Shown here piece by piece: positions 6,921 to 46,272 of a DNA stretch of 46,272 bases. Source of the DNA: Clostridia bacterium (GTDB taxonomy: Bacteria; Bacillota; Clostridia; Christensenellales; CAG-138); NCBI GenBank assembly GCA_017539215.1, contig JAFYHI010000066.1, positions 1-46,272 on the forward strand, in the 5' to 3' direction. How positions within the stretch are numbered: the stretch's first letter is position 1; every line of letters starts with the position of its first letter. The notes beneath the pieces were generated by a model. The model had not been told where the DNA came from. It worked only from the letters and a program-made list of their open reading frames with translations, and ran no database searches. The position numbers and the translations under genes are program-made.

Positions 6921-6953
6921 AAGAAGAAAACCCAAGTGAGAAAACCACTCGGG
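6921..6953 (-). terminator. Rho-independent terminator after the PHP phosphatase
   Basis: Reading leftward, CCCGAGTG and CACTTGGG form an eight-pair stem with one G-T pair and a short loop, followed by TTTTCTTCTT. It separates the CpsB-like gene from the ABC exporter operon. Confidence 0.75.
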
Positions 6954-6997
6954 CAATATATTCTTTGGAATTGCGGCGGATATGCGTAAGCCGCTTT

Positions 6998-11104: not shown

Positions 11105-11118
11105 ACCCGAATTGGCGC

Positions 11119-11234
11119 CGCTTCTCCCATCCGGACTATAACCGTCGGTATCGGAATCTCACCGATTCAATGGGCGAAAGCGCCCACTCGCAGACTGTAC
11201 TGCCGGTAGGGATTTACACCCTGCCCCGAAGCTG
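11119..11234 (-). ncRNA. FMN riboswitch (RFN element)
   Basis: Read leftward, the conserved RFN blocks are in order: CTTCGGGGCAGGGTG, AAATCCCTACCGGC, AGTACAGTCTGCGAG, a variable GGGCG/CGCCC hairpin, TTGAATCGGTGAGATTCCG, ATACCGACGG, and TATAGTCCGGATGGGAGAAG. It folds as a six-stem junction, binds FMN, and normally turns expression off. It lies between its promoter and ribU. Confidence 0.97.
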
Positions 11235-11239
11235 TGCTG

Positions 11240-21942: not shown

Positions 21943-22046
21943 TGAAGCGGGATGCAAGCCGCGCTCCGCAAGCCGCCCTGCGGCTTTTCGTTCGGCCGAC
22001 AACTCCCCGTTCGGCCAACACTTAACGAACGCTGCTTTACTCTTCA
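21943..22046 (-). ncRNA. Tetrahydrofolate (THF) riboswitch
   Basis: Read leftward, the class I THF aptamer elements occur in order: GAAGAGTA, CGTTAAGTG, GGCCGAACGGGGAGTTGTCG closing on GGCC, GAACGAAAAGCCGC with its partner GCGGCTTG, then TTGCATCCCGCTTC, which closes the first stem with GAAG. The element senses folates and normally represses uptake genes. The gene directly downstream is a folate-type ECF subunit. Recognition is from memory of the family consensus. Confidence 0.88.
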
Positions 22047-31709: not shown

Positions 31710-33170
31710 CTAAACCTCACGCCTCAGTATCCTGTGAATAAGCTCCATATCGAGCCCCTCAATGCAGGCGTCGGCGAGTTTATCGTACTGCGCCTCTTTG
31801 TATGCCGCGGCGTCGAACGAGCCGAGCTTTGTTTCGTCGGCGCCCTTCCTTCGGCACAGCGCGCGCAGCACCGCCTCCGCAACTCCCGGGGCGTCGAATA
31901 TGCCGTGAACGTAGCTGCCGTAAACATTGCCCTCGCTTATGACTGCCGGCAGGTCGCCGCTCCGGCCCATGTGTATCTCGTATCCTTCGTACGAAAGCCC
32001 GTTCAAGCAGGCGAATATCCCGCTTACGCCCGAGAAAACGCCCTTCGTTTGGCGCTGCACCTTTTCGCCCCGGAACACGGTGGAGGTTTGCAAAAGCCCC
32101 ATCCCGCGCACGCTCTTCACCTCGCCCGCCTCAACGCCTTCGGGGTCGGATATGCTCTGCCCCAGCATCTGGTACCCGCCGCAGATACCGAATACGGGCG
32201 TCCCGCGGGAGGAGGCCTGCCTGATCTTCGCTTCAAGGCCGTTTTCACGAAGGAACAGAAGGTCCGCTATCGTGCTTTTTGTGCCGGGCAGTATTATAAG
32301 GTCGGGCTCGCCCAATTCGTCGGGCTTCGTTATATAGCGCACGGATACGTTCGCATAGCGCTCAAAGGGGGCAAGGTCGGTAAAATTCGATATCCTCGGC
32401 AGCTTTACCGCGGCAATATCCACGAGCTTTGCGGCTTTCCCCCGCGTGAACCTTTCGGACAGGCTGTCCTCGTCGTCTATGTCGGCGTGAACGTACGGCA
32501 CCACCCCGGCAACGGGTACGCCGCAAAGCCGCTCCAGTATTTCAAGCCCCGGCTCCAGTATGCGCCTGTCGCCGCGGAATTTATTGACGATCACGCCCTT
32601 TATCCTTGCCCGCTCGTCGGGCTCAAGCAGCGCGACCGTGCCGTAGAGCTGAGCGAAAACACCGCCGCGGTCAATGTCGCCCACCAGCAGCACCGGCGCG
32701 TCCACAAGCGCCGCAAGGCCCATGTTCACAATGTCCTCCTGCTTCAGGTTTATTTCCGCGGGGCTGCCCGCGCCCTCTATCACTATCACGTCAAATTCGG
32801 AGGCAAGCGAATCGTACGCCGCCAAAACGTCGGGGATGAACTCCTTCTTTCGGCGATAATACTCCATCGCGCGCATGTTGCCTATCGCCCTGCCGTTCAC
32901 TATGACCTGACTGCCCACGTCCGTGGTGGGCTTCAGCAGTATCGGGTTCATGCGCACGTCGGGCTTTATCCCCGCCGCCTCCGCCTGCACCACCTGTGCG
33001 CGGCCCATCTCAGAACCGTCATCGGTAATAAAGGAATTCAGCGCCATGTTCTGGCTTTTGAAAGGAGCGACTCTATAGCCCTCGCGGCGGAATATGCGGC
33101 AGAGTGCCGCGCAGATAAGGCTCTTGCCCGCGTTGGACATGGTGCCCTGCACCATAATGTTCATTGCCAT
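31710..33170 (-). CDS. cbiP: Cobyric acid synthase
   Basis: A 486-residue glutamine-dependent amidotransferase that amidates the b, d, e and g side chains of adenosylcobyrinate a,c-diamide. The N-terminal synthetase domain starts [13 protein letters not shown] (P-loop) and includes [10 protein letters not shown] and [11 protein letters not shown]. The C-terminal class I glutaminase-like domain has [11 protein letters not shown] with the nucleophile Cys, and GSYVHGIFD with the His. The ATG at 33170 is chosen because GGAGG lies about ten bases upstream; 33179 is too close to that site. It overlaps the upstream cobD by ten bases and is the last gene of the operon. Confidence 0.96.
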
Positions 33171-34219
33171 TTCAAACATACCTCCGGGATCGATGTAACG
33201 GCCTTTATCAGCCGCTCGTTTTCATTGGGCAGCCTGACTGCCGTGCGGAAAAAGCCGGGTCCGAGTCCGTCAAAATTCGCACAGGAGCGCAAGCGCACGC
33301 CCCGGCTTTCAAGTGCGGTTCCAAGGTCCCTTCCCCCGCGCAGCAGCAGGAAGTTCACATTGGAGGGGTAGGTCTTAAGCCCAGCCCGCTCAAGCCCCAA
33401 GGCAAGTTTCGGACGTTCCGTCCGGATGAGCGCACGGGTTTTTTCAAGAAAACCCCCGCAGCCCAACGCTGCGCACCCTGCGCATTGCGCCGGGGCCGAA
33501 ACATTCCACGGCTGCGTTTGGCGCGAGACCGCACGCATCAGCGCGCGATTTCCGGAAAGCACATAGCCGAGCCTCAGCCCCGCCATGCCGAAGCTCTTTG
33601 TAAAGGCTTTGAGTATGATAAGGTTTTCGTACCGCGAAAGCTGCGGTTTGAGGCTTGCGCCGGCGTCGGACAGGTCCATAAAGCATTCGTCGGCAAAAAG
33701 CAGCGTGCCCGCGCGGGCGCAGGCGTCAAGAAGGCAAAGCTTTGTTTCCGGGTCCATCGCGAGGCCCGTGGGGTTGTTGGGGTCGCACAGAAAGAACGCC
33801 TCCGGACGCGCAGACTCTATAAAGCGAATAAGCTCTCGGCCCGCCGCAAAGCCGTCCGCCTCCGAAAGCGCATATGCCGTGCGCCGGGATCCCGCAAGCG
33901 GGAGCGAGTATTCGGCAAAGGTCGGCGCAAGCTCCGCAAAGCGCCCGGGGCGCACCGCGTGGGCAAAGGCGTATATGAGCTCCGCCGCGCCCGCTCCGCA
34001 CAGCACGTATTCGCGCGGGACGCCTTCAAAGGCGGCTATGGCCTCCGTCAGCTTCCGGCAGTACGGATCGGGGTACAGGTGAAGGACGTTTGCCGCGTCA
34101 AGGTATGCGCGCACGACCTCCTCCGGCGCGCCGAAGGGGTTTACGTTGGCCGAAAAATCCAAAACACAGCCGCCGTCATATATATCCCCGCCGTGGGGGT
34201 TCTGCGATTCATACAGCAT
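33161..34219 (-). CDS. cobD: L-threonine-O-3-phosphate decarboxylase (CobD type)
   Basis: A 352-residue PLP enzyme of the class I/II aminotransferase fold that makes (R)-1-aminopropanol-2-phosphate, the linker of cobalamin. Visible: NPHGGDIYD and [11 protein letters not shown] at the N-terminus, [12 protein letters not shown] near residue 75, [12 protein letters not shown] near 145, the PLP lysine in [17 protein letters not shown] near 210, and [15 protein letters not shown] at the end. Histidinol-phosphate aminotransferase is the close relative; the SANVNPFG and NPHGG motifs and the cobalamin context decide. It overlaps cbiB by 11 bases and cbiP by 10. Confidence 0.94.
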
Positions 34220-35192
34220 GGGTCAAAAACAGCACGGCAAGCTTCAGCCCGCCAAACAAGCACAGCGCGAACGCCGAGGTCAAAAGCATTATGCGGCACG
34301 CGCGGGATATGTCCTCCGGCTCTGCCTCGCGCAGCGGGTCGCCTATAAAGGGCTTTTTGTGCAGTACGCCGTGATAGCTTGCGTCGCCCGCAAGCCTCAG
34401 CCCCAAAAGCCCCGCCATCACAGACTCCGTCTGGGCGGAGTTGGGGCTTGCGTGCTTTCTGCGGTCGCGTCTGAAAACGCGGAACGCTCTTTTTGCGTCA
34501 AAGCCCAGAACGCCTCCCGCCGCAAGCATTATGAGCGCAGAGAGCCTTGCGGGGATGAAGTTGAATACGTCGTCGAGCACGGCGGGGAAGAAACCGAAAT
34601 TTTTGTACGGCTCCTCAACGTAGCCCAGCATGGAGTCCATCGTGTTGACGGCCTTGTAGAGCATGCCGAGCGCACCACCGCCCAGCGCCAGAAACGTAAG
34701 CGGCGCAATTACTCCGTCCGAGGCGTTTTCCGCCACGGTCTCCACCGCCGCCTTAGCCACGCCCTCGCGGGAAAGGGCGGCCGTGTCGCGCCCGACTATC
34801 ATCGAAACGGCGTGACGTGCTTTTTCAATATCCCCGCCGTCAAGGGCTTTTTTTACCTTCATACTCTCTTTTTGAAGCGACCTTGCCGCAAGGCATTGCC
34901 AGCACATGACGCTCTCCAGCCCGAATCCCAGCCAAGGGGTCACGCGGTAACAGAGCCTTAAAAGCGCGAACGGCACAAGGAACGCCGCCGCCGCCGTGAT
35001 AAGCCAAAGCAGGCCGCCCGCCGCCTTTTCGCCCGCGGGAGTCTTGGGGAACAGGCGGCGCAAAAGCTTTTCAAGCGCCGAAATAAGCCCGCCCATAAGC
35101 ACCACGGGATGCGGCGGAAAGCGCGGATCGCCCAGCAGCATATCCATCAGCGCGCCAAGTAAAAGCGCGTAAACCGACCAGATACCGTTCAT
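34209..35192 (-). CDS. cbiB: Adenosylcobinamide-phosphate synthase CbiB
   Basis: A 327-residue integral membrane protein that attaches aminopropanol (phosphate) to adenosylcobyric acid. Signature segments are LLGALMDMLLGDPRFPPHPV near the N-terminus, AVSMIVGRDTAALSREGVAK near residue 130, ETVAENASDGVIAPL near 150, and YKAVNTMDSMLGY near 180, with about five hydrophobic helices. Its ATG overlaps the cbiJET stop (ATGA), and its end overlaps cobD, whose product supplies its substrate. Confidence 0.95.
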   Translation of the reverse strand: MNGIWSVYALLLGALMDMLLGDPRFPPHPVVLMGGLISALEKLLRRLFPKTPAGEKAAGGLLWLITAAAAFLVPFALLRLCYRVTPWLGFGLESVMCWQCLAARSLQKESMKVKKALDGGDIEKARHAVSMIVGRDTAALSREGVAKAAVETVAENASDGVIAPLTFLALGGGALGMLYKAVNTMDSMLGYVEEPYKNFGFFPAVLDDVFNFIPARLSALIMLAAGGVLGFDAKRAFRVFRRDRRKHASPNSAQTESVMAGLLGLRLAGDASYHGVLHKKPFIGDPLREAEPEDISRACRIMLLTSAFALCLFGGLKLAVLFLTHAV

Positions 35193-37162
35193 CTTCCATT
35201 AAAAGTAAATATGTACACGGGGTTTTGCGCCGTCATCAGGCGGCTTTGCCCCAGCTTCCGCGCGCGTGATACCTGCACGCACACGGCCTCCGTCCGCTTA
35301 AAGCGGGGGTCGTCCAAAAGCGCGGACAGCTCCGATACCGTCCCAAGCGTCACAGCGGCGGCCACTATCCGCACACCGGGGTTGAGCCCAAGCAGCAGCT
35401 CAACTATATCGCGGACGTTTCCGGAGCTGCCGCCTATAAAGGCGTGCGTCGGAGCGGGCAGCCCAAGGCAGGCGCCGGGCGCCTCGCCCTCTGTGATGCT
35501 TACGTTTTTAAGCCCGAATTTTGCCGTGTTTGCCCGCAGCACTTCAACGGCTTCGGGGTTTTTTTCTATCGCGTAAACCATACCCCCGGGCGATGCCGAG
35601 GCCATTTCCGCTGTGACGGAGCCCGTGCCCGCGCCAACGTCCCACGCGACCGAATCGCGCGTGAGGCCGAGCTTGCTCATTATCACCGCACGCACCTCGG
35701 ATTTTGTCATCGGCACGACCGGTCGGCCCTCTGCGCTGCGTATAAAGGTTTCGTCCGGCAGGCCGAAGGCCGCGCTCTCGGGCGTGGGGTTTTTTATCAG
35801 CACGGCGGAGAGCGGATCGAAGCCGCGCCCGCAAAGCTCATGAACGTCGGCCCTTGTAATGCGCTCGTCGGGATAGCCCAGCCTTTCGCCCACTATCGCG
35901 CGGGCTTCGCCAAGCCCCGCTTCCGCAAGCTCCCGCATGAGTCGTCCCGCGCCGTTTTCGCCGCCGACGAGTACGAAAACCGATGCGTTCGTGCGCACCG
36001 CCTGCACCGCGTTCTGCTCCCTTCCGTGCAGGCTTACGCATACGGTGCCCTCGTACGATTCGCCCGCCGCGGCGCAAAGGTATGCAAGCGAGCTTACCCC
36101 GGGCCTTACCGCGCATTCGCAAAAATCAAGCAGAGGCAATAGCTTTTTGGCCCCGCTGTAAAAGCCGACGTCGCCGCTTAGAAGCACGGCAAACCGCTCA
36201 AACTCGCGGTGGGTGCGAATAAACTCCGCTATCCTTACGGGCGACACCGCCTCGAAAACGGTCTGATCGGGGCGCGCGCATTCAAGCATCCGCGCCGCGC
36301 CTATCACGCATTCGGCGTCCGAAATCTCGCGCAGCACCGCTTCCGTCATACCCTCGCGCGGGCCGGGGCCGACGCCCGCCACGCATACGCGCTGCCTCGG
36401 CTTAAAGCCGTATCTTTTTGACAGCAGGTCTATGGCCTCTTCAAGGCTCATCCCTTCGGCGGGCTGAGCGGGCCTGCCTATCACCACCAGAACCGCGCCG
36501 GCCTCCTCTGCCGCACGGGCCTTTTCCAAAAAGCCGCCCGCCCTGCCGGAGTCCTTTGTAACGACGCAGCGCGCATCTGCAGCCGCGATCGTGGCGCGGT
36601 TCATATCAAACGAAAACGGCCCCTGCATTGCGATAATGTGCGAGGGAGCAAGCCCTGCCGCGGTACAGGCCTCTATCGAGGCAGCGGACGGCAGCACCCG
36701 GGCGAATACGCGCTCCGAAAAACCGTCGACGCCCGCAAACGCAGAGATCTCCTTTGAGCCCGTCGTCAGCAGTATGCGGCCCGAAGTGCCGTTAAGATAT
36801 TTCACGGCAGAGGCCGTATCGGGCACGCGCACGGCGTTTGCCGCCGTTTCGCCGCCGCTGCGCTCAATGCGCAGGTACTCCGTGCCCGCCGCGGCGCAGG
36901 CCGCCGAGATGTTCTCCGTCACGGCAGAGGCATAGGGGTGAGTCGCGTCAAGAACCGCGTCGAAACGCTCGCGCTTTATGAATTCCTCCATCTGCGCTTT
37001 GTCCATGCGGCCCGTCAGCACCCGCACGCCGGGCGCGGGGGACAAAAGTTCCCCGCCGTATTCGGTTGCGGCGCACACGCACACCTCGGCGTCCCGGCCG
37101 CTCAAAAACCTTTCGAGCCTTCGACCCTCGGTCGTGCCCGCAAAAACGCACAGCTTAACCAC
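35189..37162 (-). CDS. cbiJET: CbiJ-CbiE-CbiT fusion: precorrin-6A reductase and 6Y/7 methyltransferases
   Basis: A 657-residue three-domain protein covering consecutive steps of corrin synthesis. Residues 1-250 are cobalt-precorrin-6A reductase (CbiJ: VFAGTTEGRRLERFL, DATHPYASAVTENI, VTKDSGRAGGFLEK). Residues 257-460 are the C5-methyltransferase CbiE (VCVAGVGPGPREGMT, LLSGDVGFYSGAKKLL, VRPGVSSLAYLCAA). Residues 480-657 are the C15-methyltransferase/decarboxylase CbiT (PMTKSEVRAVIMSKL, AWDVGAGTGSVTAEMA, FIGGSSGNVRDIVE). CbiE-CbiT fusions (CobL) are common; adding CbiJ in front is less so. It starts with GTG 37162 immediately after the cbiH stop. Confidence 0.95.
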   Translation of the reverse strand: MVKLCVFAGTTEGRRLERFLSGRDAEVCVCAATEYGGELLSPAPGVRVLTGRMDKAQMEEFIKRERFDAVLDATHPYASAVTENISAACAAAGTEYLRIERSGGETAANAVRVPDTASAVKYLNGTSGRILLTTGSKEISAFAGVDGFSERVFARVLPSAASIEACTAAGLAPSHIIAMQGPFSFDMNRATIAAADARCVVTKDSGRAGGFLEKARAAEEAGAVLVVIGRPAQPAEGMSLEEAIDLLSKRYGFKPRQRVCVAGVGPGPREGMTEAVLREISDAECVIGAARMLECARPDQTVFEAVSPVRIAEFIRTHREFERFAVLLSGDVGFYSGAKKLLPLLDFCECAVRPGVSSLAYLCAAAGESYEGTVCVSLHGREQNAVQAVRTNASVFVLVGGENGAGRLMRELAEAGLGEARAIVGERLGYPDERITRADVHELCGRGFDPLSAVLIKNPTPESAAFGLPDETFIRSAEGRPVVPMTKSEVRAVIMSKLGLTRDSVAWDVGAGTGSVTAEMASASPGGMVYAIEKNPEAVEVLRANTAKFGLKNVSITEGEAPGACLGLPAPTHAFIGGSSGNVRDIVELLLGLNPGVRIVAAAVTLGTVSELSALLDDPRFKRTEAVCVQVSRARKLGQSRLMTAQNPVYIFTFNGR

Positions 37163-37894
37163 TTAAACCTCCCTGTAACCCCTTGGGGTCACCATGCGGC
37201 CCGCCGTCATGCGGGTTTGCGAATTGCCTATAAACACCGTGCAGAACATATCGGCGGGGTAGTCCGCAAGCTCTGCAAGAGTCATGTATTCGCGGCTCTC
37301 ACCCGCGCGCCCGATGCTGCGCGCAATGCCGCAGGGCCGGGTGCCGGGCAGCGTTTTCATAAGTATTTCACAGGCTTTTTTTAAGTGTTCGGGCCGCCCG
37401 TGGCTCGCGGGGTTGTAAAGCACAAGGGTAAGGTCCGCGTCCGCCGCCGCGGTGAGCCTGCGCTCTATAAGCCCCCATTCGGTCAGCCTGTCGGAAAGCG
37501 ACACCACGCAAAAGTCGTGCGTCAGCGGCGCGCCCAAAAGCGCTCCCCCGGAGCAGGCCGCGGTAAGCCCGGGGATCATAATGACCTCGGGCTCCGGGTC
37601 TTCCCCCCGAAGCTCCAGCACGAGCCCCGCCATGCCGTATATGCCGCTGTCGCCGGAGCAGACAAGCGCCGTCTTCCGGCCCTTTTTCGCCTCGTCAAGC
37701 GCCATGCGGCAGCGCTCCGCCTCGCGCGTCATGGGGGTCGTCAAAAATTCCTTGCCGGGGTAGTGACCGCGCACGAGATCGACGTAAACGTGATAGCCGA
37801 TTATCACCTCGGCCTCCTCAAGCGCACGGTGAGCGCGCAGAGTCATATCTTCAAAGCTTCCGGGGCCGAGCCCCACGACGTACAGTTTACTCAA
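37163..37894 (-). CDS. cbiH: Precorrin-3B C17-methyltransferase CbiH
   Basis: A 243-residue SAM-dependent tetrapyrrole methylase that methylates C17 with ring contraction. Motifs: LYVVGLGPGSFEDMTLRA at the start, IIGYHVYVDLV near residue 33, ALVCSGDSGIYGMAGL near 75, IMIPGLTAACSGGALLGAPL near 103, and YNPASHGRPEHL near 158. It begins with TTG 37894 behind GGAGG, six bases away, and overlaps cbiG by eight bases. It is of the short form, lacking the C-terminal iron-sulphur extension of some aerobic-type CobJ enzymes. Confidence 0.95.
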   Translation of the reverse strand: MSKLYVVGLGPGSFEDMTLRAHRALEEAEVIIGYHVYVDLVRGHYPGKEFLTTPMTREAERCRMALDEAKKGRKTALVCSGDSGIYGMAGLVLELRGEDPEPEVIMIPGLTAACSGGALLGAPLTHDFCVVSLSDRLTEWGLIERRLTAAADADLTLVLYNPASHGRPEHLKKACEILMKTLPGTRPCGIARSIGRAGESREYMTLAELADYPADMFCTVFIGNSQTRMTAGRMVTPRGYREV

Positions 37895-38909
37895 AACGAA
37901 CCTCCGTTTTTACAAGCGCGGCGGCAACGGTAACGCCGTTTTCCGCCGTTTTCTTTATTATCAGTTCGTCCGCGCAGAGCAGCGCGGCCCTTTCGCAAAC
38001 GTTGTCCACCCCGGTCGTTAGCTTTACGAATACTGACGGGGTGAAATCTCCCTTTACGGCGTTAAGCTCCTCTGCGGAATAAAAGCTTATATCAAGGCCG
38101 GCTTCGCGGCAGTATTCAAGCAGGCCGGCTTCGTCCCTTTTAAGGTCTATGGAGGCGGCGCTCTTCACCGCGCTAAAATCTATCCCGTGATACGTCAGAG
38201 TTTTGTCAACGGCGTATTTTATGCTTTCGGCGGGAGTCCCCCGTCTGCAGCCTATGCCAAGCACGACGCATTTGGGAACGAGCCTCAGCGTCACGTCAAA
38301 CGGAGCCGCGCTTTCGTCGGCATAGGTCAGATATATGCCGATGGCGCCGTCTTCGCCCGCATACAGGCCTTTGGGCAGGGCGCCCTTTACGTCAAAATCG
38401 GAAACAAAAGGCACGTCCCCTTCGAGTATCGCCGCCGAAACCGCCTTGGCGGCGTCTGTGCTGCTTATCGAAAAGCCCTGCGAGCTTGCCCACGAATCCA
38501 CGGAAAAGCGCCCGTTTGCGTCCGTGGCGGTGGTGATGACAGCCGTGCCGCCCAGGGCGCAGGCCAGCCGTTTTGCAAGCCCGTTCGCGCCGCCGATATG
38601 CCCCGAAAGCAGCGATATTGCAAACGCGCCCGTTTCGTCCACTACGACCACGGCGGGGTCCTCGAGCTTGCTCTTTATAAACGGCGATATGCAGCGCACC
38701 GCAATGCCGCAGGACGATACGAAAACGAGCGCGTCGGAGTCGCCGAACGCCTTGCCGTAAAGCGGGGCGGAGGGCTTGGGTATTGGCAAAAAAACGCCCC
38801 CGGCTATACGCTCCGGCGCCCACGCGCGGCAGTCGCCGCCAAGCTCCGCGATGATGCGAAGGGCGGTGTCCATGCCCTTTTTGGTGTATGCAAAGACGGA
38901 TGTTCTCAT
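37887..38909 (-). CDS. cbiG: Cobalt-precorrin-5A hydrolase CbiG
   Basis: A 340-residue enzyme that opens the delta-lactone of cobalt-precorrin-5A and releases acetaldehyde, a step specific to the anaerobic pathway. Recognisable parts are the N-terminal domain (SVFAYTKKGMDTALRI), the middle domain (ALVFVSSCGIAVRCISPFIK, DPAVVVVDETGAFAISLLSG, HIGGANGLAKRLA), and the C-terminal CbiG domain (VLGIGCRRGTPAESI, then IDLKRDEAGLLEYCRE). ATG 38909 overlaps the cbiF stop as ATGA; the longer frame into cbiF is ignored. Confidence 0.95.
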   Translation of the reverse strand: MRTSVFAYTKKGMDTALRIIAELGGDCRAWAPERIAGGVFLPIPKPSAPLYGKAFGDSDALVFVSSCGIAVRCISPFIKSKLEDPAVVVVDETGAFAISLLSGHIGGANGLAKRLACALGGTAVITTATDANGRFSVDSWASSQGFSISSTDAAKAVSAAILEGDVPFVSDFDVKGALPKGLYAGEDGAIGIYLTYADESAAPFDVTLRLVPKCVVLGIGCRRGTPAESIKYAVDKTLTYHGIDFSAVKSAASIDLKRDEAGLLEYCREAGLDISFYSAEELNAVKGDFTPSVFVKLTTGVDNVCERAALLCADELIIKKTAENGVTVAAALVKTEVRFE

Positions 38910-39658
38910 TTTGCCGTACGGAATCCGGTCGAAAAGCCGGGGTCGTAAAGGAGCGAGCGCAGGTACTCTTCTCCCATGCACCCGCCCACGATTATAAGGC
39001 TCGTTTTTTTAAGCCCGCTTTCCGCGACGGTTTCGTGGAGCGTGCCCACGGTGCAGCGAAAGATATGCTCGTCGGGCCAGGTCGCCTTGTAAACGACCGC
39101 CGCTGGGGTATCGGCGGGATAGCCGCCCGCCAGAAGCTCCGCCTGCAGCTTTTCGGTGAGCGAGGTCGAAAGGAACAGCACCATGGTGGCCCCGTGCGCG
39201 GCAAGCGAGCGTATGCTCTCCCTTTCGGGCACGGGCGTTCGTCCTGCGGCGCGGGTTATAATAACGGTCTGACTAACGCCGGGCAGAGTGTATTCGGCCT
39301 TGAGCGAGGCCGCCGCCCCGCAGAACGAGCTTACCCCCGGCGTCACGTCGTATTCTATGCCAAGCTCGTCCAGCGCGTCGAACTGCTCGCGCACGGCGCC
39401 GTATATGGAGCTGTCGCCCGTGTGCAGACGCACCGAGGTCTTGCCCGCAGCCTCGAATTTTTTTATGATTTCCAACACCTCTTCAAGCGTCAGACCGGAG
39501 CTGTCGTAAACCTCGCAGTCATCGCGGCAGTACGAAAGCAGCTCCGGGTTCACAAGCGACCCCGCCCAGATGACGGCGTCCGCCTGCGACAAAAGCCTTG
39601 CTCCGCGCACGGTTATAAGGTCGAAGGCTCCCGACCCCGCGCCTACAAAATGCACCAT
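38906..39658 (-). CDS. cbiF: Precorrin-4 C11-methyltransferase CbiF
   Basis: A 250-residue SAM-dependent methylase acting at C11. Motifs: VHFVGAGSGAFDLITVRG at the N-terminus, VIWAGSLVNPELL near residue 30, RLHTGDSSIYGAVREQ near 77, YDVTPGVSSFCGAAASL near 102, and ITRAAGRTPVPE near 130. Spacing to cbiD is a single base and its end overlaps cbiG, consistent with strict co-translation along the pathway order F, G. Confidence 0.96.
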   Translation of the reverse strand: MVHFVGAGSGAFDLITVRGARLLSQADAVIWAGSLVNPELLSYCRDDCEVYDSSGLTLEEVLEIIKKFEAAGKTSVRLHTGDSSIYGAVREQFDALDELGIEYDVTPGVSSFCGAAASLKAEYTLPGVSQTVIITRAAGRTPVPERESIRSLAAHGATMVLFLSTSLTEKLQAELLAGGYPADTPAAVVYKATWPDEHIFRCTVGTLHETVAESGLKKTSLIIVGGCMGEEYLRSLLYDPGFSTGFRTAK

Positions 39659-39659: not shown

Positions 39660-40793
39660 TCAAACCTCCCTGAAAAAGCTCAAAAACTCACGGGCGTTTT
39701 CGGACTCGCCCAGCACGCCGTATTCCTTTGAAAACATCAACATTTCCGCCTGCATTGCGCCGCCCGCCCTCAGCCTGAGGTTGGCCGAGGCCCGCTCCGT
39801 TACGGAGCAAAGCGTGCGCCGCGCAAGGTCCGCGTCCTCTTCGCGCAGCAGCCTTACCGCCTCGTCGCAGGCGGCGCAGGCGAGTATCTTTTTTATAAGC
39901 ACGGTTCCCGCGCCCGCCGCGCCCGCGTGGGCGGCTATTATCTCCATGCGGCAATCGCCGTATTTGGAGTGCGTGTTCAGCATATTGCCGGCAAGCTTTA
40001 CAAGCTTGCCGATATGACCTATAAGAAGGACCCGGCCAAACCCGAGCGCACGGCATATATCCAGCGCGTCGCCTATGAAATTGCTCGTCTGCACGGCGGC
40101 GCCCGGGTCTATGCCGAGGCTCGTTCTGATGAACTCCGCGCCGTAATTGCCCGGGGTCAGCAGCACGCTTTCATGCCCCAGCGCGCGTTTTTGCTTAAGC
40201 TCCGTGCGTATGGTCCCGATAAGGGCGGCCTCGCTCATGGGCTCAACTATGCCGGTGGTGCCGAGCACCGATATGCCGCCTTCTATGCCAAGGCGGGGGT
40301 TAAAGGTCTTTTTCGCAAGCTCGACCCCGGCGGGTATGGATATCGTCACCTCAAGCCCCGGGCAGTCGAACAGCCGCATTACCTCCCGCACGTTTTCCTC
40401 TATCATGCGGCGCGGCACGCTGTTTATCGCGGCGGCGCCCACGGGCTGGTCAAGGCCGGGCTTTGTCACGCGGCCCACGCCAACGCCGCCGTCAATGAAT
40501 ACGCCGGGCGCGGCAGCAAGCGAAACGGCTGCGTAAACGAGCGCGCCGTTCGTCACGTCCGGGTCGTCGCCCGCGTCCTTGCGCACCGCGCATGAGGCCG
40601 TGCCGCCCTCCCATTTCGGGTCCTCGGTTTTAAGCTCCAGCACCTGCCCGCCGGGGGTCGTAAGCTTCACGCTGTCCATACGCCTTCCGGACAGCAGCAT
40701 ATACGCCGCCGCCCTTGCCGCCGCCGCCGCGCAGGAGCCCGTGGTATAGCCGAGCCTCAGCTTTTTGCCGTTTTTTTCAATGGTTTCGTTCAT
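39660..40793 (-). CDS. cbiD: Cobalt-precorrin-5B C1-methyltransferase CbiD
   Basis: A 377-residue enzyme that methylates C1 in the anaerobic pathway; it is unrelated to the tetrapyrrole methylase fold. Landmarks: LRLGYTTGSCAAAAARAA near the N-terminus, KDAGDDPDVTNGALVYA near residue 72, GVGRVTKPGLDQPVGAAAIN near 103, LGIEGGISVLGTTGIVEPMS near 165, and LLIGHIGKLVKLAGNMLNTH near 255. It marks the route as the early-cobalt (anaerobic) type. Its ATG overlaps the cbiC stop (ATGA). Confidence 0.97.
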   Translation of the reverse strand: MNETIEKNGKKLRLGYTTGSCAAAAARAAAYMLLSGRRMDSVKLTTPGGQVLELKTEDPKWEGGTASCAVRKDAGDDPDVTNGALVYAAVSLAAAPGVFIDGGVGVGRVTKPGLDQPVGAAAINSVPRRMIEENVREVMRLFDCPGLEVTISIPAGVELAKKTFNPRLGIEGGISVLGTTGIVEPMSEAALIGTIRTELKQKRALGHESVLLTPGNYGAEFIRTSLGIDPGAAVQTSNFIGDALDICRALGFGRVLLIGHIGKLVKLAGNMLNTHSKYGDCRMEIIAAHAGAAGAGTVLIKKILACAACDEAVRLLREEDADLARRTLCSVTERASANLRLRAGGAMQAEMLMFSKEYGVLGESENAREFLSFFREV

Positions 40794-41419
40794 CGCGTTA
40801 TACCGTAGAGCAGGGCGTTAACCACAGCCGCCGCCACGTTGGAGCCGCCCTTTCTGCCGCGCGCGACTATGTGCGGCACGGCGGAGGATATAATAAGCTC
40901 CTTTGATTCGACCACGTTCACAAACCCCACGGGCACTCCTATTATGAGCTTTGGGCTTATTTTCCCTTCCTTCATCAGCGCGTCCAGCGCGATAAGCGCA
41001 GTCGGGGCGTTGCCTATCGCAAAAATCAGCGGCTTTTGAAGCCCCGCCGCCTTTTCCATGGATACCGCCGCGCGGGTCACACCGCGCCGCTTCGCTTCCT
41101 CCGCCACGTCCGGATCCGACATAAAGCAGTGCGCCTCGCCGCCGAGCTTTGCAAGCGCGGCCTTGTTGACGCCCGCCTTCGCCATCTGTGTGTCGGTGAC
41201 TATGTCGCAGCCCGCGCAAAGCGCCTCCCTCGCAAGAAGGACGGCGTCCTTTGAAAACACGAGGCTGTTTGCATACTCAAAGTCCGCCGTCGTGTGTATG
41301 ACGCGCTTTATGACTGGCTCGTTCACCGGGTCGAGCCGTATGCCCTTTTCATCGAGCAGCCCGGATATTATCTCGAAGCTGCGCTTTTCTATCTCCATCG
41401 GTTTAAGCGTTTCAAACAT
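40790..41419 (-). CDS. cbiC: Precorrin-8X methylmutase CbiC
   Basis: A 209-residue mutase that moves the C11 methyl group to C12, giving (hydrogeno)cobyrinic acid. Motifs: VIKRVIHTTADFEYANSLVF with the catalytic His near residue 43, CDIVTDTQMAKAGVNKAAL near 73, FAIGNAPTALIALDALM near 130, and IIGVPVGFVNVVESKELI near 155. ATG 41419 gives the family's usual length; the frame opens much further upstream inside cbiA. It overlaps the cbiA stop by eight bases. Confidence 0.96.
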   Translation of the reverse strand: MFETLKPMEIEKRSFEIISGLLDEKGIRLDPVNEPVIKRVIHTTADFEYANSLVFSKDAVLLAREALCAGCDIVTDTQMAKAGVNKAALAKLGGEAHCFMSDPDVAEEAKRRGVTRAAVSMEKAAGLQKPLIFAIGNAPTALIALDALMKEGKISPKLIIGVPVGFVNVVESKELIISSAVPHIVARGRKGGSNVAAAVVNALLYGITR

Positions 41420-42776
41420 GGCGTTTCTCCTTTTCGGCAAGCATCGCGTTATAAAAGCCCTCGGCAAATTCGGGGTTTGCGTAAAAGTGGAGGTGGGGGA
41501 ACCCCGCATAAAGCGCAGGGCCCGCATGCACGCAGGGCCAACTGCGCCCGTCGGCCTTTGACGCGGTGAAGGCGTCCCCGCAGTCGTCAGCGTCATAGCG
41601 ATGGAATTCATGCGCCGGTATGCGCCCGCCCTTCGGGCAGAGCATGCTGCCGCGCTCCGCTTCAAGCGTGACGTAGCCGAAACGGGTCAGCCTGCCACTG
41701 TCGAAGCAGCCCCCCTTTATAAAGCCGACCATCGGAAAATCCGAGATGCGCTCGGTCAGGTACATGAATCCCCCGCATTCGGCAATGCAGGGCAGCCCGC
41801 GGCGAAGCGCGCAGCAAACGCTCTCGCGCATGGTTTCGTTCGCGGACAGCCTTTTGGCGTAAAGCTCGGGGTAGCCCCCGCCTATGTACAGCCCGTCAAG
41901 CCCGTCGGGCAGGCGCTCGTCGTCGAGCGGGCTGAAGGTGACGATATCCGCGCCCATCTTCATAAGCAGGCCGAGGCTGTCCTCATAGTAAAAGCAAAAC
42001 GCCCTGTCCCGCGCAACACCCAGCCGCACGGGCTCGCGGCGGCGCGGCGTTATCGGCGTAAAGGCAAGCTCCGGCGCCGCCTTTGAAAGGGCGAGTATGC
42101 CGTCAATGTCAAGGCTCTTTTCGGCCTGCTCCGCAAGACGGTCGAGCTTTTGTTTAAGGTCTTCTATCTCCTGGGCCGTCACAAGCCCGAGGTGGCGGCT
42201 TTCTATCGCGCAGTCGGGCATTTTGGGCAGGTACCCCATGGGCATTATGCCAAGGCGCTTTTCGATCTCGGGCGCAAGGGCGCGGTACACGCGCCCGGTG
42301 CAGTTGTTGAGTATCGCCCCGCGTATGAAGCTCTGCGGCACAAAGCTCAAAAAACCCCGTATCTGCGCCAGTACCGAGAGCGACGCGCCCGATGCGTTGA
42401 CCGTCAAAACAACGGGGGAGAGCGTCTTTTCGGCGGCGTCGTATGCGCTTGCGCGGAAAGAAGTCAGCCCCAGCCCGTCGTAATAGCCCATAACGCCCTC
42501 TATAACGGTGACGTCGCGCCCGGCGCCGTTTTCGGCAAGCAGAAAGCGCATTGTGTTCGCGTCGAAAAAGAACGGGTCGAGGTTTGAAGACGGCGCCCCG
42601 ACAACGCTCCTGTGGAACATGGGGTCAATGTAATCCGGCCCGCATTTGGCGGCGCCCGCGTCAAGCCCGCGGTTTTTAAGGGCCGTCAGCAGCGCAAGCG
42701 TCGCCGTGGTCTTGCCGCAGCCGGAGCCCGTCCCCGCAATCAGCACGCGCGGGACGGAAACGACGGTTTCATTCAT
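41412..42776 (-). CDS. cbiA: Cobyrinate a,c-diamide synthase CbiA
   Basis: A 454-residue glutamine-dependent amidotransferase acting on the a and c side chains. The synthetase domain has the P-loop LIAGTGSGCGKTTATLALL, KCGPDYIDPMFH and VIEGVMGYYDGLG. The glutaminase domain has GLYIGGGYPELYA, PCIAECGGFMYLTE with the nucleophile Cys, and EFHRYDADDCG near the C-terminus with the His. It overlaps btuD-like 42769-43860 by eight bases and precedes cbiC. Confidence 0.96.
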   Translation of the reverse strand: MNETVVSVPRVLIAGTGSGCGKTTATLALLTALKNRGLDAGAAKCGPDYIDPMFHRSVVGAPSSNLDPFFFDANTMRFLLAENGAGRDVTVIEGVMGYYDGLGLTSFRASAYDAAEKTLSPVVLTVNASGASLSVLAQIRGFLSFVPQSFIRGAILNNCTGRVYRALAPEIEKRLGIMPMGYLPKMPDCAIESRHLGLVTAQEIEDLKQKLDRLAEQAEKSLDIDGILALSKAAPELAFTPITPRRREPVRLGVARDRAFCFYYEDSLGLLMKMGADIVTFSPLDDERLPDGLDGLYIGGGYPELYAKRLSANETMRESVCCALRRGLPCIAECGGFMYLTERISDFPMVGFIKGGCFDSGRLTRFGYVTLEAERGSMLCPKGGRIPAHEFHRYDADDCGDAFTASKADGRSWPCVHAGPALYAGFPHLHFYANPEFAEGFYNAMLAEKEKRHV

Positions 42777-43860
42777 TCAGTATCCCCCTTTCGGCGGCAA
42801 GCAGGGCAAGCCTTGCGTTCGCCTCGTTGAGTGTGCCGCGCGGCGCGCCCGCGTCTATCACGCTGCCGCAGGCAAGCATTACGCCCCGTGCTTCTGTAAA
42901 CAGCTCCTCCGTCACGGGCTCGAACGCGGGCGAGAGTATCAGCTTTGAAGCAAGACTTCCGGCAACGTATGCGTCCACGTCGTTTTCAAAAAGTATCCCC
43001 GCCGCAAACGGCACGCGCCCGCGCTGCAGCCTCCTGTAAACGGGTATGCCCGCTCCCGCCCCGCCTATCACGAAGACCTGCGGCTCTCCCACGGGCTTTT
43101 CAAGCTCAATGCTGCCGAGCGCCGCGTTGTAGCTGCCCTTTTCAAGACCGAAAAGCGCCTCTGCGGGGCATTCGCGCAGCACCTGCTCCGGCGGGCCGAA
43201 AGCGGCTGCCGTTTCGCCCTTTACGCAAAGCAGCAGATCCGAAGCCTTTGCCGCAAGGTCTATCTCGTGCAGGCTCATTATAACGGTCAGCCCCTCGTTT
43301 TCCGCAAGCTCCCGCAGCAGTGAAAGCAGCTCTGCCTTGTGCTTAACGTCAAGGTAGGCCGTCGGCTCGTCCAATACGAGCAGGTCGGGCTGCTGGGCAA
43401 GCGCACGCGCAAGTATCACGCGCTGCTTCTGCCCGTCCGACAGGGTCATATAGTCGCGCTGAGCAAGGTCCGCCGCGTTCACAAGCTCAAGCGAGCGCGC
43501 GACTATGCGCCTGTCCTCGGGCGTCATGCGCCCTACGGCGTTGGTGTAGGGGTAGCGCCCCAGCGAGACAATCTCCCGCGCGGTGGCAAGCTCCGGGCGG
43601 ATGCGGTCGGTAAGCACCACGGCCTGCCTGCGAGCAAGCTCCTTTGCGCTCATCGCGGCTATATCGCGCCCTTCAACGGCAACGACGCCGCGTATCGCCG
43701 CAAGCTGGCGGGCGATGGTTTTAAGTATGGTCGATTTGCCGGAGCCGTTTGGGCCTATGAGGGTGAGTATGCCTCCTCGCTCCAGCGCAAGGTCTATATC
43801 CCGTATCAGCGTTTTTCCGTTGTAGCCCACGGCAAGCCCGCTCGTTTCGAAAAAGCTCAC
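42769..43860 (-). CDS. btuD: Corrinoid/iron-chelate ABC ATPase with a C-terminal extra domain
   Basis: A 363-residue ATP-binding subunit of a FecCD/BtuCD-type importer. Residues 1-245 are the ATPase: Walker A LIGPNGSGKST, signature LSDGQKQRV, Walker B LLVLDEPTAYLD and switch VIMSLHEIDLA. Residues 255-363 form an extra domain, starting VGEPQVFVIGGAGAGIPVYR and containing ARGVMLACGSVIDAG, with a nucleotide-fold look that ordinary BtuD lacks. It starts at GTG 43860 one base after the permease gene. Cobalamin-riboswitch control and operon context favour a corrinoid, or cobalt-related, substrate. Confidence 0.88.
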   Translation of the reverse strand: MSFFETSGLAVGYNGKTLIRDIDLALERGGILTLIGPNGSGKSTILKTIARQLAAIRGVVAVEGRDIAAMSAKELARRQAVVLTDRIRPELATAREIVSLGRYPYTNAVGRMTPEDRRIVARSLELVNAADLAQRDYMTLSDGQKQRVILARALAQQPDLLVLDEPTAYLDVKHKAELLSLLRELAENEGLTVIMSLHEIDLAAKASDLLLCVKGETAAAFGPPEQVLRECPAEALFGLEKGSYNAALGSIELEKPVGEPQVFVIGGAGAGIPVYRRLQRGRVPFAAGILFENDVDAYVAGSLASKLILSPAFEPVTEELFTEARGVMLACGSVIDAGAPRGTLNEANARLALLAAERGILNE

Positions 43861-43861: not shown

Positions 43862-44890
43862 TCAAGCCCCCCTTCTGCGGCGGTCTATCATCATCCAAAT
43901 GACCACCGGCGCGCCGAAAACGCTCGTCACCGTGCCTATATTAAGCTCGGTCGGGGCAAAGACGGTCCTTGCGATAAGGTCTGAAAACACGCAGAACACC
44001 GCCCCCGCAAGAAACGCCGCGGGTATGACGAGCGCGGGCCGCGAGCTTTTCAGAAGCCGCCTCGTGATATGCGGCACGGCAATGCCCACGAACGACACCG
44101 GCCCCGCAAGCGCCGTCACGCAGGCCGACAGCAGCGATGAAAGCAGTATCAGCGCCAGACGAAAAGGCTTTACCGCAACGCCCATGCTTTTGGCGTAGCC
44201 CTCGCCCAGCGCGTACGCGCCCATCGGCTTTGACAGCAGCCACGACAGCAGCACGGCGGGCAGGCAGACTGCCGCGGCGGTCACGACCTGATCCCAGCCC
44301 TTGCCCGAAAAGGTGCCCATGGACCAGTATTTGAGGTTTACGATATCCTGCTCCGAGGCGAATGCTATTGCGGCGTCCGTCACGGCGGAGCAGATATACC
44401 CCACCATTATGCCAACGACCAGGAGCAGCTCCATGTTTTGCACCTTCTGCGAAAACAGAAGCACCAGCGCGGTGATGAGCAGCGACCCCAAAAACGCGGC
44501 GGCGACGAGCGCGGCGGGGTCAAGCGCGACGACCCCCGAAAGGAATATCATGGTAAGCCCGACTATCATTTTGGCTCCGGAGGATATGCCCAAAACGAAC
44601 GGTCCCGCGATGGGATTGCGGAAAAAGCTTTGCAGCAGGAACCCCGATACCGCAAGCGCGCCGCCCAGTATCGCGGCCAAAAGCATTCGCGGCATGCGCA
44701 CGTTGAAAAGAATCATGCTTTGGGTGGAAGCGTCGGCGCCGTTTTTGATGAGGGCGGCTATTTCGGACAGCGACAGCCTGACCGTGCCGACGGCAAGGTT
44801 TATGACGAGCGCCGATAAAAGCGCCGCAAACAACAGCCCCGTGACCGCCCAAAACCGGCCTGAACCAAAACCCGAACCGCGCTTTTCCAA
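43862..44890 (-). CDS. btuC: FecCD/BtuC-family ABC permease
   Basis: A 342-residue membrane permease with about nine or ten helices. Family signatures are RMPRMLLAAILGGALAVSGF near residue 65, NPIAGPFVLGISSGA near 95, LKYWSMGTFSGKGWDQV near 190, and GPVSFVGIAVPHITRRLLKS near 270. A frame opens at 45004, but that would run through the leader terminator and riboswitch. TTG 44890, with GAGAGG six bases upstream and just after the terminator, is preferred. No substrate-binding lipoprotein of the BtuF type is seen nearby. Confidence 0.9.
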   Translation of the reverse strand: MEKRGSGFGSGRFWAVTGLLFAALLSALVINLAVGTVRLSLSEIAALIKNGADASTQSMILFNVRMPRMLLAAILGGALAVSGFLLQSFFRNPIAGPFVLGISSGAKMIVGLTMIFLSGVVALDPAALVAAAFLGSLLITALVLLFSQKVQNMELLLVVGIMVGYICSAVTDAAIAFASEQDIVNLKYWSMGTFSGKGWDQVVTAAAVCLPAVLLSWLLSKPMGAYALGEGYAKSMGVAVKPFRLALILLSSLLSACVTALAGPVSFVGIAVPHITRRLLKSSRPALVIPAAFLAGAVFCVFSDLIARTVFAPTELNIGTVTSVFGAPVVIWMMIDRRRRGA

Positions 44891-44904
44891 GCCCGACCTC
44901 TCAA

Positions 44905-44932
44905 TAAAAAAGATGCGGCAAAACGCCGCATC
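44905..44932 (-). terminator. Leader terminator of the cobalamin operon
   Basis: Reading leftward GATGCGGC-GTTTT-GCCGCATC is followed by TTTTTTATT, directly before the btuC ribosome site and after the riboswitch. It is the likely expression platform: B12 binding should promote termination. Confidence 0.85.
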
Positions 44933-44969
44933 CGAATTTATGCAACAAACACCCCGCGCCATCACCTTT

Positions 44970-45135
44970 TGCGGGATACGGGTCAAGCAGGTCTTCCGGC
45001 TCACGCATCATAAGGCAGGCACGGCCTTCTCGGTTGCCCAATGGCCCGCTTTCGCATGTGCTGCCCTCCGCGTTCACGGCGGCGGTTCCGCCCGGGAATC
45101 ACACCCGGTTGTCTATTATCCCGCAAAGGCCATGG
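44970..45135 (-). ncRNA. Cobalamin riboswitch 1 (biosynthesis operon)
   Basis: Reading leftward, the aptamer shows ACCGGGTGTGATTCCCGGGC, GAACCGCCGCCGTGAAC, a variable arm, GGGCAACCGAGAAGGC and the closing GAGCCGGAAGACCTGCTTGA. These are the conserved core and B12-box elements. The box variant CCGCCGT replaces the usual CCGCCACTGT. Promoter, aptamer, terminator and btuC follow in order. Confidence 0.93.
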
Positions 45136-45174
45136 GGCCAATGCGGGCACTTGACTCTTTTTTTGTACGCTTCT

Positions 45175-45308: not shown

Positions 45309-45337
45309 ATTGACAATTTGCGCTGCGCGGAGTATGC
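45309..45337 (+). promoter_or_regulatory. Promoter of cobalamin riboswitch 2
   Basis: TTGACA (45309-45314), 17 bp, then TATGCT (45332-45337), divergent from the biosynthesis-operon promoter about 100 bp away. Confidence 0.75.
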
Positions 45338-45384
45338 TGTTATCAAATCGAATATGCATTCGAGTGCGCATCGGGGCCTTTGGG

Positions 45385-45540
45385 CCTCTTTGCGAGAATA
45401 GGGAACCCGGTGTGAATCCGGGACGGTACCGCCACTGTATTTGCGGAGCGCGCGCATCTGATGAAAGTCGGCCATTGGGAAACCGAGAAGGCTTTGCGCG
45501 GGCGTTGAGGCATAAGTCAGGAGACCTGCTTGGGTGGATC
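45385..45540 (+). ncRNA. Cobalamin riboswitch 2 (chelatase gene)
   Basis: Classic blocks in order: AATAGGGAACCCGGTGTGAA, TCCGGGACGGTACCGCCACT with GTA, a variable arm, GGGAAACCGAGAAGG, and AAGTCAGGAGACCTGCTT. The match to the family consensus is closer than in riboswitch 1. A strong terminator at 45596 and the CbiK-like gene follow. Confidence 0.96.
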
Positions 45541-45595
45541 GGGTCGCTTCCCTGCGCCATACGGGGGCCGACTGTACGTTTAGCTGCGTAAAAAC

Positions 45596-45630
45596 GGCCG
45601 CAGCGGGTTTGTACCCGCTGCGGCTTTTAT
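45596..45630 (+). terminator. Leader terminator of the chelatase gene
   Basis: GCCGCAGCGGGT (45597-45608) and ACCCGCTGCGGC (45613-45624) form a perfect 12-bp stem followed by TTTTATT. It is the likely riboswitch expression platform. Confidence 0.9.
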
Positions 45631-45693
45631 TGTGCCCAAGCCGCGCTTTTGCACAGATCCGGGCTTGACCCGGTAATTATAAGGAGGAAAAAC

Positions 45694-46272
45694 ATGAAAA
45701 CCATCGTTAAGATCGTCTGCATGGCGCTTGCCGTGTGCATGATCGCGGGCCTTGCCGCCTGCACCCGTAATCCCGCAAAGCCCGAGGACAAGCCCGAGGA
45801 CAAGCCCGCCGACAACACCGGCAAGACGGATAAGGAGCTTGCAGACGAGGCCGCCGCGCTCATAGACGCCATCTACGTTCAGACCCGCACCGATGAGACC
45901 GACGCTCAGTGCGAGGCCGCCAAGGCCGCGTGGGACAAGCTCACCGACGCTCAGAAGGAGCTTGTCGCGGGCAAAGAGGCCGACCCCGATTACTTCGGCC
46001 GCGACACGGGCGACGCCTCCAAGGACGACCCCCGCAACGCCGACGGGATAGGCGAGAAGGAGCTGCTCGTAGTTTCCTTCGGCACCTCTTTCAACGACAG
46101 CCGCGCTGAGGATATAAAGGGCATTGAGGACGCGCTTGCCGCCGCCTTCCCCGATTGGAGCGTGCGCCGCGCCTTCACCGCGCAGATAATCATCAACCAT
46201 ATTCAGGCCCGCGACGGCGAGAAGATAGACAATGTTGAGCAGGCCCTTGAGCGCGCCGTATCAAACGGCGTC
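45694..46272 (+). CDS. cbiK: CbiK-like sirohydrochlorin cobaltochelatase, lipoprotein form, 3' end outside window
   Basis: The first 193 residues of a protein that runs past the window. Residues 1-23 are a lipoprotein signal (MKTIVKIVCMALAVCMIAGL, then AAC with Cys 23). A Lys/Pro/Asp-rich tether follows, then a helical module (residues about 45-100, ending AWDKLTDAQKELV) like those in Gram-positive surface proteins. From residue 123 the CbiK chelatase fold begins: ELLVVSFGTSFNDSRAEDI, AAFPDWSVRRAFTAQIIINH, VEQALERA. CbiK inserts cobalt into sirohydrochlorin. Export to the cell surface is unusual, though a periplasmic CbiK is known in Desulfovibrio. AAGGAGG lies six bases before ATG 45694. Control by a cobalamin riboswitch supports a cobalt/corrinoid role. 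Confidence 0.9.
   Translation, partial: MKTIVKIVCMALAVCMIAGLAACTRNPAKPEDKPEDKPADNTGKTDKELADEAAALIDAIYVQTRTDETDAQCEAAKAAWDKLTDAQKELVAGKEADPDYFGRDTGDASKDDPRNADGIGEKELLVVSFGTSFNDSRAEDIKGIEDALAAAFPDWSVRRAFTAQIIINHIQARDGEKIDNVEQALERAVSNGV

Follow-up and report, generated by a model that had tools for sequence, protein, structure and literature searches.

The closest described counterpart of the system presented here is the IhtABCDE operon of Porphyromonas gingivalis, which encodes the CbiK-like lipoprotein IhtB/FetB together with a binding protein, a permease and an ATPase (PMC10913741; for this and all other papers cited, our statements are drawn from parts of the source). A coenzyme B12 riboswitch was reported upstream of this operon in 2013, when its receptor, IhtA, was called a BtuB homologue (PMC3764172); additionally, P. 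gingivalis cannot make precorrin-2, according to a study cited in PMC6461909. Here, we analysed a 46,272-nt stretch of DNA (the window; contig JAFYHI010000066.1 of assembly GCA_017539215.1) from a Clostridia bacterium of the Christensenellales lineage CAG-138, at the end of which a CbiK-type lipoprotein is encoded under its own cobalamin riboswitch and divergently from an importer and corrin biosynthesis operon. The P. gingivalis system differs from this one in belonging to a Gram-negative bacterium, in having a TonB-type receptor and in being seen as a heme/iron uptake system (PMC10913741). In the group of the window, by contrast, the exported-CbiK system sits with the corrin operon, and it includes a helical module and a NEAT-like partner, neither of which is mentioned for Iht in those parts of the literature that we consulted. 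Our favoured explanation, to which we assign a probability of roughly 0.55, is that the lipoprotein captures at the cell surface, and probably loads with cobalt, a salvaged sirohydrochlorin-type precursor that is then imported into a truncated corrin pathway.

The solved structures nearest to the protein by sequence are, best first, Salmonella CbiK (1qgo), P. gingivalis FetB (9b86) and Desulfovibrio CbiK (2xvx). Salmonella CbiK (1qgo, 2xwp) shares the same three residue positions described below and, unlike the protein of the window, is cytosolic and comes without a signal, a tether, a helical module and a partner importer. CbiKP of Desulfovibrio vulgaris (2xvx/2xvy/2xvz), likewise a CbiK chelatase, is periplasmic; this Gram-negative species also has a cytosolic CbiK, and we know of no tie of CbiKP to a missing HemB. 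A B12 element regulates both cbiK-cbiL and btuCDF in Desulfovibrio (PMC545781). In a rumen paper of 2025 that cites Lobo 2008, CbiK is credited with sirohydrochlorin transport and cobalt insertion (PMC12654859).

Tetrapyrrole precursor salvagers, defined in 2018 (Shelton), resemble the organism studied here in having corrin genes and no early tetrapyrrole genes; they are mostly Firmicutes, and 78% of those with a known ecosystem are host-associated (PMC6461909). Precorrin-2 salvagers are one salvager type (PMC8123684). The experimentally verified type is dependence on 5-aminolevulinic acid, and, unlike here, no macrocycle uptake machinery is named in the parts of that work consulted (PMC6461909); the same holds for the consulted parts of surveys that class such species as B12 producers or precursor auxotrophs. 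Exported CbiK proteins are already known, and the proposed link to an uptake route of precursor salvagers is the new part: in the literature searched, which covered few subscription journals, we did not find exported CbiK tied to precursor salvage, the nearest statement being that of the rumen paper (PMC12654859).

An exported CbiK-type protein and its partners

The frame of the CbiK lipoprotein is free of stop codons from its ATG to the contig end (Table 1). It starts with the lipoprotein signal MKTIVKIVCMALAVCMIAGLAAC (lipobox LAAC), which is followed by a charged tether, the helical module TDAQCEAAKAAWDKLTDAQKELV and the first part of the CbiK domain, which matches positions 1-66 of the class II chelatase family PF06180 at 55.9 bits (cut-off 26.2). 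A full-length relative reaches 215 bits with the same model and scores 170.3 bits with NF047852, the sirohydrochlorin cobaltochelatase equivalog, below the cut-off of 400. We call a CbiK exported when a signal peptide or lipobox precedes the CbiK domain, as is the case here. The lipobox cysteine is invariant in all ten same-genus rows. Based on a permissive pattern, a lipobox-like motif was found in 76 of the 80 named loci (the best-ranking ones among 582 confirmed relatives), and the remaining four carry a classical signal as judged by eye; the helical-module motif was found in 77. In the AlphaFold2 model of a relative (L064; mean predicted local distance difference test score, pLDDT, 77.7), helices of the tether module occupy residues ~35-81, and the CbiK domain begins at ~111.

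Because the window is one whole contig (C55 of genome G000; G, C and L numbers denote the genomes, contigs and loci of our sets), the gene is cut by the assembly. A C-terminal CbiK part with both histidine motifs, MGHG and AGDHA, is located at positions 1-456 of contig C75 of the same genome. The two contigs are not joined in the assembly, and the gene order in relatives suggests that the lipoprotein continues on C75. Based on the 1qgo alignment count, Glu89, His145 and His207, which we take to be the catalytic residues of CbiK, correspond to Glu207, His281 and His347 of the genus protein L025. The equivalents of all three are kept in 78 of the 80 named loci; in the copy of the window, both histidines lie on C75 and the glutamate position falls in the assembly gap.

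Two cobalamin riboswitches stand back to back in the window, one in the leader of each divergent operon. The divergent pair was present in all six of the genus CbiK loci scanned with Rfam (of ten loci), and a pair of B12-box motifs was found upstream in 64 of the 79 named loci with enough sequence versus 7 of 986 control windows. An earlier reading of this DNA from its letters alone (the sequence-only reading) had described a surface-anchored CbiK-like lipoprotein with a helical module under its own B12 riboswitch; this description is confirmed by the PF06180 and RF00174 matches. The two metal-ligand histidines that it proposed to check are present, as is the signal peptide in close homologues.

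The permease and ATPase genes are divergent from the lipoprotein gene in all ten same-genus loci. Of the NCBIfam models, BtuC comes closest to the permease, below cut-off, and a corrinoid model to the ATPase (Table 1). On C75, the CbiK part is followed by the gene of a 264-residue lipoprotein, a relative of which comes directly after the CbiK lipoprotein in 10/10 same-genus loci (as two separate genes in L034). A class III binding-protein gene is next in nine of them; in the tenth (L032, from a genome of 53% completeness), the 0.6 kb that remain up to the contig end hold another gene and gave no binding-protein match. A FecCD permease, an ATPase and a class III binding protein are found together, the arrangement of BtuCD-F-type importers.

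These data support the claim of the sequence-only reading that the lipoprotein belongs with the divergent importer. They also show that the importer is not BtuF-less, because the second gene downstream of CbiK encodes a class III binding protein: the statement that no binding protein is encoded holds within the window and fails beyond it, and the proposal that the lipoprotein stands in for a missing BtuF is contradicted by the PF01497 protein, present in 9/10 genus loci and 69/80 named loci. Of the two genes said to speak against that proposal if found together, a cytosolic CbiK and a nearby BtuF, a BtuF-type gene was found, and a cytosolic CbiK was not found in the 70% complete genome of the window. 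The observation was confirmed and the mechanism wrong in its main point. Why a chelatase should be exported when corrin synthesis is cytosolic was the right question, and the actual reason for this location is probably more interesting.

By 'NEAT-like', we mean similarity to the 264-residue partner lipoprotein, with no heme binding implied. The partner does not reach the cut-off of the NEAT family PF05031 (32.8 bits; 28.0 for the first row and 26.5 for the copy on C75), and 15 of 16 rows match this family at E-values up to 0.1, the best being 1.7e-7. No NEAT chain was present among the PDB matches of the partner profile. A Pfam scan of fusion proteins gave a sub-threshold NEAT match in L097 and none in L100, L110, L139 and L141. 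A PDB search with the binding protein gave a single weak match, Lmo2184.

Gene content of the genus, the class and the named genomes

The genus set consists of 13 genomes including that of the window, eight of which are at least 90% complete. HemB was found in 0/13. CbiK is present in 11, and the two genomes without it (G005 and G006) are also without corrin methylases. The exported protein is the sole CbiK in 8 of the 11 cbi-positive genomes (in four of the six that are at least 90% complete), and an additional leaderless CbiK was found in three of the 13 (G002, G010 and G012). The leaderless copy of G010 (L035:2937-3713) has AGEDA for AGDHA, so that the His347 motif is lost, and is possibly decaying or repurposed. 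A hidden cytosolic CbiX was rejected, since PF01903 only cross-matched the same CbiK genes, in 9 of the 13 genomes.

Nine of the 11 cbi-positive genus genomes have four PF00590 methylases: CbiF, CbiH, CbiE and an RsmI-type gene, labels that rest on model matches for the genes of the window and on position, size and inspection for the others. Uroporphyrinogen III methyltransferase (SUMT) was not among the PF00590 matches of any genus genome. A complete ring pathway including CbiL was not found in 10 of the 11 cbi-positive genomes, CbiL being absent from their PF00590 matches; only G010 has a real CbiL. A fifth match in G007 was rejected as SUMT or CbiL and, on inspection by eye, is one RsmI-type gene split across two contig ends.

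At the class level, we sampled 196 Clostridia genomes with a requested completeness of 90%, the genome of the window being included despite its 70%. The lipoprotein profile was matched by 55 genomes, 39 of which were used in the class table after removal of the window's own genome, five genomes without CbiD (G041, G063, G113, G140 and G198) and those with weak or partial matches (G013, G030, G065, G105, G125, G151, G153, G170, G173 and G190). N-termini were read in 29 loci and 18 further stretches. We identified an exported CbiK in 11 sample genomes; its signal carries a lipobox in ten of them and is of the classical kind in G097. The lipobox-like motifs of G156 and G192, located upstream of the likely start or outside a hydrophobic signal, were judged to be chance matches.

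CbiD is present in all 11 genomes with exported CbiK versus 45 of the 185 others, the window's own genome among them (Fisher p 4.8e-7, relatedness ignored). None of the nine genomes whose CbiK is exclusively exported has HemB, versus 25 of the 30 CbiD-positive genomes with a leaderless CbiK (Fisher p 9.4e-6, relatedness ignored). Both kinds of CbiK occur in G110 and G102, where HemB is present and the leaderless copy lies at most 7 kb from hemB. In eight of the nine exported-only genomes, the exported CbiK is located at most 10 kb from cbiD.

The PF00590 frames of these nine genomes were assigned, with models or profiles built in this work, to CbiF, CbiH, CbiE, CbiL or YabN, and SUMT was not among them; eight of the nine have a further PF00590 frame of 279-345 residues, RsmI by size. 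Long frames considered as SUMT-HemD fusions were rejected: that of G088 is a CbiF-CbiG fusion, and those of G096 and G031 are YabN (in G031, the methylase part was scanned). CbiL was found above the TIGR01467 cut-off in four of the nine (G088, G096, G031 and G097) and was not found in the other five (G204, G124, G077, G180 and G145). Corrin pathways without CbiL span several families (these five sample genomes and 10 of the 11 cbi-positive genus genomes).

Mapped on a quick maximum-likelihood tree built from 94 CbiK domains, export requires two changes of state. One group contains 61 exported rows, with a support of 86 in the Shimodaira-Hasegawa-like approximate likelihood-ratio test (97 when three leaderless copies of the genus are included), and the second export lineage is the pair G096/G031, nested in a leaderless group. 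In this second lineage, the exported CbiK of G031 has as its neighbour a class III binding protein that contains an S-layer homology domain (L198:13113-14639, minus strand).

The 80 named loci come mostly from Lachnospiraceae and Oscillospiraceae of the human or animal gut, including Faecalibacterium, Gemmiger, Eubacterium ramulus, Roseburia and Butyrivibrio, and some from Spirochaetaceae bins. The sequences of three bins labelled Spirochaetaceae or Treponema (L068, L109 and L142) are close to those of Bacillota, which would fit either cross-phylum transfer or mis-binning. Near CbiK, we found a NEAT-like protein (near or fused) in 79 loci, a class III binding protein in 69 and a permease in 69, the last two together in 67 according to profiles built in this work. 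With the same kind of profiles, CbiK is fused to the NEAT-like protein in 23 of the 80 loci, and the NEAT-like protein to the binding protein in 17. The ATPase is fused to CbiD in three loci (L074, L089 and L095), to CbiE-CbiT in L141 and to the cobyric acid synthase CbiP in all eight long ATPase frames scanned (of nine in total, L136 being the other). The fusions form a chain that leads from the chelatase through the importer to the corrin enzymes. Separately, single CbiK frames with approximately double the CbiK profile score occur in L078, L079, L099 and L133; in that of L078, a NEAT-like domain comes after a tandem pair of CbiK domains.

The HemB search covered 50 of the 80 named genomes, namely the top 40 (L064-L103) and ten that add isolates and named genera. 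Cultured hosts with no HemB match include Faecalibacterium (L074 and L095) and Gemmiger (L089). At least two ring genes are present in the same locus in 15 of the 39 HemB-negative versus 0 of the 11 HemB-positive genomes (Fisher p 0.02, a weak comparison given that loci are cut at contig ends).

Features of the window and neighbouring genes

The coordinates of the system are given in Table 1. The mechanical open reading frame (ORF) start of the permease falls inside the riboswitch, and the true start is probably near 44900; its homologues align from residues 28-49 in five of ten loci, from residue 19 in one and from residue 2 in four.

Table 1. Features of the CbiK lipoprotein locus in the window and on contig C75 of the same genome
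Feature	Position	Strand	Remarks
CbiK lipoprotein, N-terminal 193 residues	45694..46272	+	Lipobox, tether, helical module, start of CbiK domain
Cobalamin riboswitch, CbiK lipoprotein leader	45348..45547	+	Rfam RF00174, 86.6 bits (gathering 31.5)
Cobalamin riboswitch, leader of permease/ATPase/cbi operon	44969..45167	-	Rfam RF00174, 77.4 bits
FecCD-type importer permease	43862..45004	-	PF01032, 263.8 bits
Importer ATPase	42769..43860	-	PF00005; best NCBIfam model corrinoid ATP-binding cassette (ABC) transporter ATPase, below cut-off
CbiA, cobyrinate a,c-diamide synthase	41412..42776	-	Family model match
CbiC, cobalt-precorrin-8 methylmutase	40790..41665	-	Best model below cut-off; match from residue 88, mechanical start too early
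CbiD	39660..40793	-	Family model match
CbiF	38906..39658	-	Family model match
CbiG	37887..38981	-	Best model below cut-off
CbiH/CobJ	37163..37894	-	Earliest corrin ring methylase found in the genome of the window
CbiJ-CbiE-CbiT fusion	35189..37162	-	Family model match
CbiB	34209..35192	-	Family model match
CobD-like threonine-phosphate decarboxylase	33161..34219	-	TIGR01140, below cut-off
CbiP, cobyric acid synthase	31710..33179	-	Family model match
264-residue NEAT-like lipoprotein	G000:C75:456-1250		After CbiK C-terminal part
381-residue class III binding protein	G000:C75:1351-2496		PF01497, E 7e-27

A conserved protein of ~101-105 residues is encoded after the binding protein or a leaderless CbiK (L025:13239-13544, L027:6378-6689, L035:3721-4026 and L037:10790-11107); the L037 copy has no Pfam or NCBIfam match. 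In L025, the frame at 6342-7103 (minus strand), which has the importer ATPase on one side and the cobamide tail genes on the other, is nearest, below cut-off, to the cobamide remodelling phosphodiesterase CbiR. Past the salvage operon, positions 6693-9935 of C75 (L024, minus strand) encode an energy-coupling factor (ECF)-type transporter with a PF07155-like S component and a double ATPase; its third frame matches no family and is probably the T component, and neither a recognised riboswitch nor a specific family was found for this transporter. The window also carries flavin mononucleotide (FMN) and tetrahydrofolate riboswitches, at 11115-11237 and 21943-22046, both on the minus strand.

Proposed precursor salvage and its alternatives

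The presence of corrin genes whose first steps are seemingly missing suggests the uptake of a ready-made B12 precursor made by others. Moreover, since the exported protein is the sole CbiK in most of the genus and no CbiM was found there, the simplest reading is that cobalt joins the ring outside the cell and enters with it. From this pattern, we infer what the lipoprotein binds, which way the product is passed on and that catalysis takes place on the outer side of the membrane, as follows. The CbiK lipoprotein would be the outward-facing first component of a salvage system controlled by B12 riboswitches. Its ligand would be a tetrapyrrole of the sirohydrochlorin/factor III class that is free of metal and released by other microbes, and the lipoprotein would most likely put cobalt into it at the surface. 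The NEAT-like partner and the class III binding protein may then take over the product, and the FecCD permease and ATPase would carry it into the cytosol, where a pathway without its first steps would finish the corrin, entering at CbiL or, where CbiL is lacking, at CbiH. The exported-CbiK system quite probably feeds corrin synthesis; for the insertion of cobalt outside the membrane, we regard the chances as evenly balanced.

Several observations weigh against this mechanism. HemB is also missing in 5 of the 30 class-sample genomes with a leaderless CbiK, and it is present in 11 of the 50 named exported-CbiK genomes searched (completeness not given, cytosolic CbiK not checked); therefore, precursor auxotrophy is no requirement for an exported CbiK. 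Where CbiL is missing, the C20 methyl group has to be in place on the compound before its import, and such a compound is less evident as a public good. With four long or partial rows removed, the tree with one exported clade loses 57.6 log units and is not rejected (approximately unbiased test, p 0.083), and only two independent kinship-aware pairs are available, so that significance cannot be reached in this way and the Fisher p-values ignore relatedness. The precursor-salvager profile of the genus, ring genes without HemB, covers the early tetrapyrrole steps through HemB and SUMT. CbiM, found in 0/13 genus genomes, was the only one searched of several kinds of cobalt importer, which makes its absence a weak argument by itself. 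The NEAT likeness of the partner is sub-threshold, and the ATPase-CbiP fusions would equally fit the import of a later corrinoid. We found no biochemistry for the CbiK lipoprotein of the window, and delta-proteobacteria that bear CbiK are described as being without known cobalt importers (PMC545781).

Among the alternatives, the import of a whole corrinoid (B12 or cobinamide), with the CbiK-type lipoprotein and the NEAT-like protein as mere surface binders and no chelation, is the main rival, unlikely as we consider it. It would account for the B12 riboswitch control, for the nearness of the permease to BtuC and of the ATPase to a corrinoid ATPase among NCBIfam models (both below cut-off), for the ATPase-CbiP fusions and for the HemB-positive genomes that carry the operon, 0/11 of which have two ring genes in the same locus. 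Counting against it are the confinement of exported CbiK to CbiD-positive genomes in the class sample (11/11), the fusions of the ATPase to CbiD and CbiE-T and the Glu/His/His set kept in 78/80 loci, which would be needless for a pure corrinoid binder.

Heme or iron acquisition, as proposed for P. gingivalis Iht, in which the exported CbiK would remove or swap the metal of heme or siroheme, is more doubtful still. A 2026 review reports FetB-dependent metal exchange in protoporphyrin, with FetB as the chelatase that places manganese there (PMC13402209), FetB ranks second among the solved relatives by sequence, and the weak NEAT likeness of the partner in 15/16 rows (best E 1.7e-7) points the same way. 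Against such a function stand the B12 riboswitch in the leader, the location with, and fusion to, corrin enzymes and the absence of NEAT chains from the PDB matches of the partner profile.

FecCD-class importers are known for large chelates, not free metal. This class of importer, together with the fusion of CbiK to a NEAT-like domain, makes it very unlikely that the exported copy acts as a metallochaperone or a store, delivering cobalt and handling no tetrapyrrole, a role that would otherwise fit the kept metal-ligand residues and the absence of CbiM from the genus. Least probable of all is that the CbiK lipoprotein itself is the binding component of a BtuF-less BtuCD, an idea that took export and B12 control correctly into account and is opposed by the presence, within the gene cluster, of a gene for a class III binding protein.

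In the most far-reaching reading, gut bacteria may insert cobalt extracellularly, as a step of B12 synthesis, into a salvaged metal-free isobacteriochlorin released by their neighbours and then import the cobalt complex, a reading that we offer tentatively and at less than even odds. Sirohydrochlorin or factor III would then be a public good, and cobalt and ring would arrive together. The P. gingivalis Iht heme operon would likewise be a B12-precursor salvage system, which would explain corrin enzymes without synthesis of their substrate. The old puzzle of that species, corrin genes without precursor genes, which reportedly goes back to a study by Roper in 2000 on the missing steps to precorrin-2, would become directly testable. 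Finally, an operon that is common in human and ruminant gut Bacillota would be an uptake route for a macrocyclic precursor, and this precursor would be a new cross-feeding currency.

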